Positions 6,226 to 35,413 of a DNA stretch of 40,839 nucleotides are shown in pieces. The stretch's first letter is position 1. Each line of letters starts with the position of its first letter. The position numbers were made by a program, and so were the translations under genes. The stretch is taken from positions 1 through 40,839 of the forward strand of contig CAMBGF010000005.1 in the NCBI GenBank assembly GCA_945866135.1. Direction: 5' to 3'. The notes under the pieces are model-generated. The model saw only the letters and a program-made list of their open reading frames with translations. It did not search any database and had not been told where the DNA came from. This stretch comes from Bifidobacterium breve (GTDB lineage Bacteria; Actinomycetota; Actinomycetes; S36-B12; UBA5976).

Positions 6226-6259
6226 CTAATGGGCCCCTACTTCCGTAGGAGCCCATTAG
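6226..6259 (-). terminator. Intrinsic terminator downstream of rpsA
   Basis: CTAATGGGCCCCTAC-TTCC-GTAGGAGCCCATTAG (14/15 paired plus one G-U wobble), followed on the minus strand by TTTTT. Confidence 0.88.
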
Positions 6260-11860: not shown

Positions 11861-11894
11861 AAATAACCCCAACTCAAAAGAGTTGGGGTTATTT
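11861..11894. terminator. Bidirectional intrinsic terminator between convergent DUF554 gene and livF
   Basis: Perfect 15-bp hairpin AAATAACCCCAACTC-AAAA-GAGTTGGGGTTATTT with A/T flanks on both sides. Confidence 0.92.
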
Positions 11895-15761: not shown

Positions 15762-15791
15762 TGGGTGGGATTGGTAAACCAATCCCACCCA
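15762..15791 (-). terminator. Strong hairpin between binding-protein gene and livH; possible attenuator
   Basis: GGGTGGGATTGG-TAAA-CCAATCCCACCC, 12-bp perfect stem plus flanking T-A pair; only a weak T tract on the minus strand. Confidence 0.7.
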
Positions 15792-34471: not shown

Positions 34472-35323
34472 TTATTTGGGCGTCAGAGAAGGTTCGCTTA
34501 TTTTGTCCCGTTTAAATGGTCGAGCGTCTACTGGTCGCAAGAAAAAGAAAAGTACGGTCGTAACAAATCCCAGATAAACAACAGCCTGCAGGAGCGTCGT
34601 CTTCGCGCTGATGTTGAAAATGCCAGCCAATAACGTCGTAATCAGTGAATTCTCAGGAAGTAACGTACTGAGGTTCAAAATCACATTGCCATCACCTGGC
34701 AGTAACGCTACCTCTTGGAATTCATGAATTCCGTATGACAAAACGCCAGCCGCAACGAAAATTAAGAGGATTCCAGTTGTTCGAAAGAACTTTGGCAAAT
34801 TGATGCTTGCTGAGGATCGATAAATTCCCCAACCCAAAAGCACTGCGGTAGCTAGACCTAGAGTTAGACCAAATAATGATGTTGCCGCGCTTCCGGAAGC
34901 CTGCGATGCTGCCCAGTAAAAAATGGCGGTTTCTACGCCTTCGCGAAGTACTGCTACGAAGGCCATAACTGCGACCGCTAATTCCCCACCCGAAACTTGT
35001 GCGGCATCAAGTTTTACTTTGAGATCACTGGACATTGTCCGGGCGGCGCTTTTCATCCAGAAGATCATCCAAGTTACAAAGATCACCGCGACAAAGGAAA
35101 CTATGCCAGCGAAGATTGGTTCAATACTTTCGGCCAACTCACTTGAAATTGACTCCAGCGCTATCGCTACGGCAATACTCATCGCTACCGCAAGAAGAAC
35201 ACCGTTTCTTACGTAGCGGATTAGATTATTTCGGTTTGTGCGCTGCAAATAGACGACAAGAATGCTGACAACTAGAGCTGCTTCGAGCCCTTCACGTAAG
35301 CCAATCAGGTAGTTTCCCAGCAT
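34472..35323 (-). CDS. FTR1 family iron permease
   Basis: Seven-TM profile; two REGxE motifs (LREGLEAALV, LREGVETAIFY). Confidence 0.92.
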   Translation of the reverse strand: MLGNYLIGLREGLEAALVVSILVVYLQRTNRNNLIRYVRNGVLLAVAMSIAVAIALESISSELAESIEPIFAGIVSFVAVIFVTWMIFWMKSAARTMSSDLKVKLDAAQVSGGELAVAVMAFVAVLREGVETAIFYWAASQASGSAATSLFGLTLGLATAVLLGWGIYRSSASINLPKFFRTTGILLIFVAAGVLSYGIHEFQEVALLPGDGNVILNLSTLLPENSLITTLLAGIFNISAKTTLLQAVVYLGFVTTVLFFFLRPVDARPFKRDKISEPSLTPK

Positions 35324-35332
35324 CTCAAACCT

Positions 35333-35368
35333 TTCTATTTATGCAACCATATTGTTGCATAAATAGAA
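35333..35368. promoter_or_regulatory. Perfect palindrome upstream of the FTR1 gene; candidate metalloregulator operator or SD-occluding hairpin
   Basis: TTCTATTTATGCAAC-CATATT-GTTGCATAAATAGAA, 15-bp perfect arms; overlaps predicted -10 (TATTCT) and SD (AGAAAGG). Confidence 0.75.
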
Positions 35369-35413
35369 GAATAGCCAATTTAGATTAAATGCGCAATTTG
35401 GGCGCTGCTTTAG

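Follow-up and report, generated by a model that had tools for sequence, protein, structure and literature searches.

A palindrome that overlaps the promoter of an FTR1-type iron permease gene is probably a SufR operator, at which, as predicted from sequence, the [4Fe-4S] form of SufR would repress iron uptake together with the suf genes, holding the place of DtxR/IdeR. This suggests that iron uptake has passed to SufR in a lineage in which DtxR/IdeR, the usual iron regulator, was not found. The comparison set held 43 genomes of the family, 23 of them from the genus itself, and 143 other genomes of the order. Positions without a contig label refer to the window, which is the whole stretch of 40,839 nucleotides that was analysed.

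The palindrome at the FTR1 promoter

The presumed controlled gene lies on the minus strand at 34472-35323 and encodes an FTR1/EfeU iron permease of 283 amino acids (PF03239, E = 3.9e-55; NCBIfam EfeU, 299.5 bits, cut-off 255). The initial annotation had described this gene as lacking an adjacent EfeO- or EfeB-like partner, and within the limits of the assembly this is true of the whole genome: the EfeO family was matched in 0 of the 43 family genomes and the EfeB family (Dyp-type peroxidase) in one of the 43, a genome other than the present one. FTR1 as the sole iron importer was considered and set aside, given the presence of FecCD-type systems. A FecCD-type permease is encoded at G000:C25:148-1092 of this genome, so that further routes of uptake for siderophores, heme or cobalamin may exist.

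The palindrome is most likely an operator. It occupies 35333-35368 on the minus strand and reads TTCTATTTATGCAAC-AATATG-GTTGCATAAATAGAA. Its earlier description as a perfect palindrome of 36 bp is accurate for the two 15-bp arms but not for the 6-nt centre, where one mismatched pair leaves 34 of the 36 bases symmetric. Perfect arms of at least 15 bp with loops of 0-10 nt are expected 0.0004 times in a window of equal composition, and the sole other repeat of this class in the window is found at 11861-11894. The latter and two further stretches (15762-15791 and 6226-6259) are near-perfect inverted repeats with loops of 2-4 nt and a terminator-like shape. Nested in the palindrome on the same strand are a 24-bp box, TTAYGNAAC-N6-GTTNCRTAA (35339-35362), which is kept across the genus, and a core, CAAC-N6-GTTG (35344-35357), which is perfect in this genome and corresponds to the published SufR operator motif (PMC8593673, PMC11995493, PMC13421787).

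The promoter proposed initially is present, with a -35 hexamer TTGCGC (35391-35396, minus strand) and, after 17 nt, a -10 hexamer TATTCT (35368-35373, minus strand). The pattern TTGCnn-N17/18-TAnnnT was found in 16 of 16 FTR1 promoters examined, TAnnnT being placed 2-6 nt before the 24-bp box. The -10 hexamer abuts the operator, the left arm beginning on its last base as had been stated. The arms were also said to run into the Shine-Dalgarno-like AGAAAGG (35330-35336, minus strand, by direct reading); this is true of the present genome, but in most relatives the box is further upstream, its first base some 50-62 nt ahead of the start codon. A short ATG frame on the minus strand (35325-35360; MQQYGCINRKV, then a stop) opens within the box and stops a single base short of the start codon of FTR1, and is probably due to chance.

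A second site at sufR and the box in related genomes

A scan of the 1.28-Mb assembly with the palindrome alone as query, allowing up to 3 mismatches, returned two sites, the one at FTR1 and one at G000:C26:12081-12104; the reversed control gave none. The search for a further copy near metal genes had been set beforehand as a check, and the copy lies at sufR, in an iron-metabolism operon. It overlaps the GTG start of a gene for a SufR-like protein of 222 amino acids, which matches the cyanobacterial SufR model TIGR02702 with E = 6e-17 and 62 bits, below the curated cut-off of 178.8. Reading of the ORFs gives the operon order sufR-B-D-fdx-C-S-U-T, where fdx is a ferredoxin-like gene, and SufB, SufC and SufS score above their curated cut-offs. 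Among SufR sequences, Cys169, Cys182 and Cys210 are present in 38 of 38, and Cys165 in 34 of 38.

CAAC-N6-GTTG spans the sufR start codon, at -18 to +6, in 18 of the 18 genus sufR loci read. The site overlaps the predicted promoter or transcript start at FTR1 and at sufR alike. The layout of the sufR sites resembles that in S. avermitilis, for which a SufR motif has been reported that covers part of the -10 and extends as far as the transcription start site (PMC11995493).

Conservation upstream of orthologous FTR1 genes, on which the initial annotation had made its proposal depend, was observed. The motif precedes an iron importer gene in 22 of 23 genus genomes, namely FTR1 in the 16 of 23 where the search of the family genomes found that gene, and an FbpA-like ferric ABC importer in six. 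In these six, which carry the box and lack FTR1, it precedes a gene for a solute-binding protein; this gene adjoins thyX and sits in the chromosomal slot that FTR1 takes in the others. The closest solved relatives of this FbpA-like protein are ferric-binding proteins (best E = 1e-73), and its NCBIfam matches are weak and named as aminoethylphosphonate carriers. G041 (75% complete) is the sole genus genome in which FTR1, the FbpA-like importer and the box were all missing.

The exact 24-bp box was found in 21 of 23 genus genomes (control, 0), the box of G027 having 1 mismatch, and in 0 of the 143 other genomes of the order. When up to 1 mismatch was tolerated, the family genomes yielded 27 sites and the reversed control 7. 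Importers account for 22 of these 27 sites, and as the genus genomes are related, these do not amount to 22 independent events. Extra boxes with 1 mismatch occur once each at G021:C25:61970, G035:C50:6927 and G038:C2:14309. Taken with the copy at sufR, conservation at the FTR1 orthologues argues for the repressor-type operator that had been predicted on this iron-gene promoter. Counting against SufR, CAAC is found in the left half of 8 of the 18 distinct genus boxes, the other 10 having AAAC or TAAC.

In the sister genus g3 the sufR box is of the TTACGCAA type, with the inner C lost, and the box at the FbpA-like gene, TTACGAAA...TTTGCGTAA, has lost the same base. The likely recognition helix of SufR reads RHH in g3, compared with mostly RKQ, RKT or RKH in the genus. 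With three genomes sampled at sufR and two at the importer, these sequences are no more than suggestive of co-variation. Looser matches to the box were seen at the FbpA-like gene in g8 and in two g2 genomes. The g2 motif near FTR1 falls within the last part of the preceding coding sequence, where coding constraint may account for it.

Alternative readings of the palindrome

The initial annotation had named a Fur- or DtxR-type iron regulator as plausible, and the palindrome is probably an operator for neither. DtxR was rejected, as the DtxR C-terminal domain (PF02742) was found in 0 of 23 genus genomes and no DtxR-like box was seen at these promoters. Upstream of FTR1 in 12 relatives with the SufR-type box (L099-L110), the best match to a TTAGGTTAGGCTAACCTAA-like (DtxR/IdeR) box has at least 7 mismatches. 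Matches to PF01325 in the genus are weak, were taken as helix-turn-helix fragments, and were set aside because PF02742 found nothing there. Since many assemblies are incomplete (this genome is 79% complete), the absence of DtxR rests on the genome set and not on a single genome. PF02742 was matched in six genomes, all in g4-g7 and none in the own genus, g2, g3 or g8. The FTR1 genes of g4, g5 and g7 have IdeR-like boxes upstream, and such boxes are also found at FTR1 in many other Actinomycetota, as judged by best mismatch count, a rough scoring. Genus g2 showed no clear DtxR gene, and no clear SufR-type box at FTR1 either.

Fur commonly controls both iron uptake and suf genes in other organisms, and the main rival to SufR is a Fur-family protein (Fur/PerR/Nur-like), encoded by a gene next to a nitrobindin-like gene, which could bind the FTR1 and sufR sites as the true iron regulator. 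At least one Fur-family gene above cut-off is present in 43 of 43 family genomes; that of this genome has no zinc genes beside it, and its product has the Fur and PerR models as best NCBIfam matches, below cut-off. However, genera without the box have Fur-family genes just as regularly, and the motif is that of the published SufR operator, placed at sufR in the manner known from the autoregulation of SufR. A Fur-type regulator is encoded in the genome, but its control of FTR1 is unlikely, because the motif is that of SufR and, apart from FTR1, occurs in this genome at sufR alone. Some Fur-family genes adjoin znuABC-like (L184, L185) or ZIP-like (L180) transporter genes, and these three proteins are likely Zur. 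A motif alone names no protein, and another DNA-binding protein might recognise the palindrome; it would then be mere chance that this protein had its operator in common with SufR and also acted at the sufR promoter, which makes it very improbable.

The inverted repeat had also been suggested to act as RNA, its arms hiding the Shine-Dalgarno sequence in a hairpin. The fold is stable in this genome (-32 kcal/mol, z = -2.7), and the right arm reaches the Shine-Dalgarno sequence. Against this, at least one base pair is lost in 10 of the 18 distinct boxes, in most cases at position 6 with no compensating change, and the box is well upstream of the Shine-Dalgarno sequence in most relatives; for these two reasons the hairpin can scarcely be credited. 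In addition, a transcript whose first base lay some 7 nt beyond the -10 would begin within the left arm, and the Rfam search gave no credible family and one sub-threshold Drosophila match. An intrinsic terminator of the upstream EamA-like gene was rejected on direct reading, there being no T-run after either arm.

Proposed control of iron uptake by SufR

For the favoured reading as a SufR operator, the following mechanism is proposed. A SufR dimer carrying [4Fe-4S] clusters would bind CAAC-N6-GTTG just downstream of the -10, and this holo-SufR would block the FTR1 promoter while the Fe-S supply is good. At low iron or cluster supply, or upon cluster damage, apo-SufR would release the DNA, and iron uptake and the suf assembly operon would therefore be switched on together. 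The sense of regulation, with holo-SufR as the repressing form, is carried over from published SufR work and presumably applies here.

The SufR operators of cyanobacteria and S. avermitilis are likewise CAAC-N6-GTTG inverted repeats over a promoter, and the cluster-binding repressor likewise lies beside or heads the suf operon (PMC8593673, PMC11995493, PMC13421787). Unlike in those operators, the motif here is also on an iron-importer promoter. SufR has been described as dedicated to suf (PMC8593673), and ftrC is a further proposed SufR target in one cyanobacterium (PMC13421787). The Mycobacterium tuberculosis SufR (Rv1460) represses the suf operon and is reported, by ChIP-seq, to have sites upstream of four other genes, none of which, as named in that report, is an iron importer (PMC6034842). 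The literature searched, which left most subscription journals outside its scope, described no case of SufR acting at an iron importer; this is weak evidence of novelty.

RirA of rhizobia is a [4Fe-4S] repressor of iron uptake whose DNA binding is lost at low iron, and the SufR proposed here would resemble it as a cluster-bearing repressor of iron uptake (PMC6748827). RirA, unlike SufR, is an Rrf2-family protein acting at IRO boxes; as it belongs to another family, the likeness would be one of convergence, not membership. The DtxR/IdeR boxes at actinobacterial FTR1/EfeU genes, in sister genera and many Actinomycetota, are just upstream of the same gene family, but the box is a different one, and a DtxR gene was not found in the genus. 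We infer that the place that DtxR/IdeR appears to hold in the sister genera is taken by SufR in the lineage without detectable DtxR. For Nanopelagicales without DtxR/IdeR, the chances are about even that SufR is the main iron-uptake regulator, a RirA-like convergence in which the operator was kept while FTR1 and a ferric ABC system replaced one another as the importer beneath it; the sister genera g3 and g8 may match, with co-varied boxes.

If true, these findings would extend SufR from the control of Fe-S assembly to the control of iron import, and would show how iron is managed without detectable DtxR in a small-genome freshwater lineage. They would also provide a clean case of an operator that outlived the replacement of the gene it controls.
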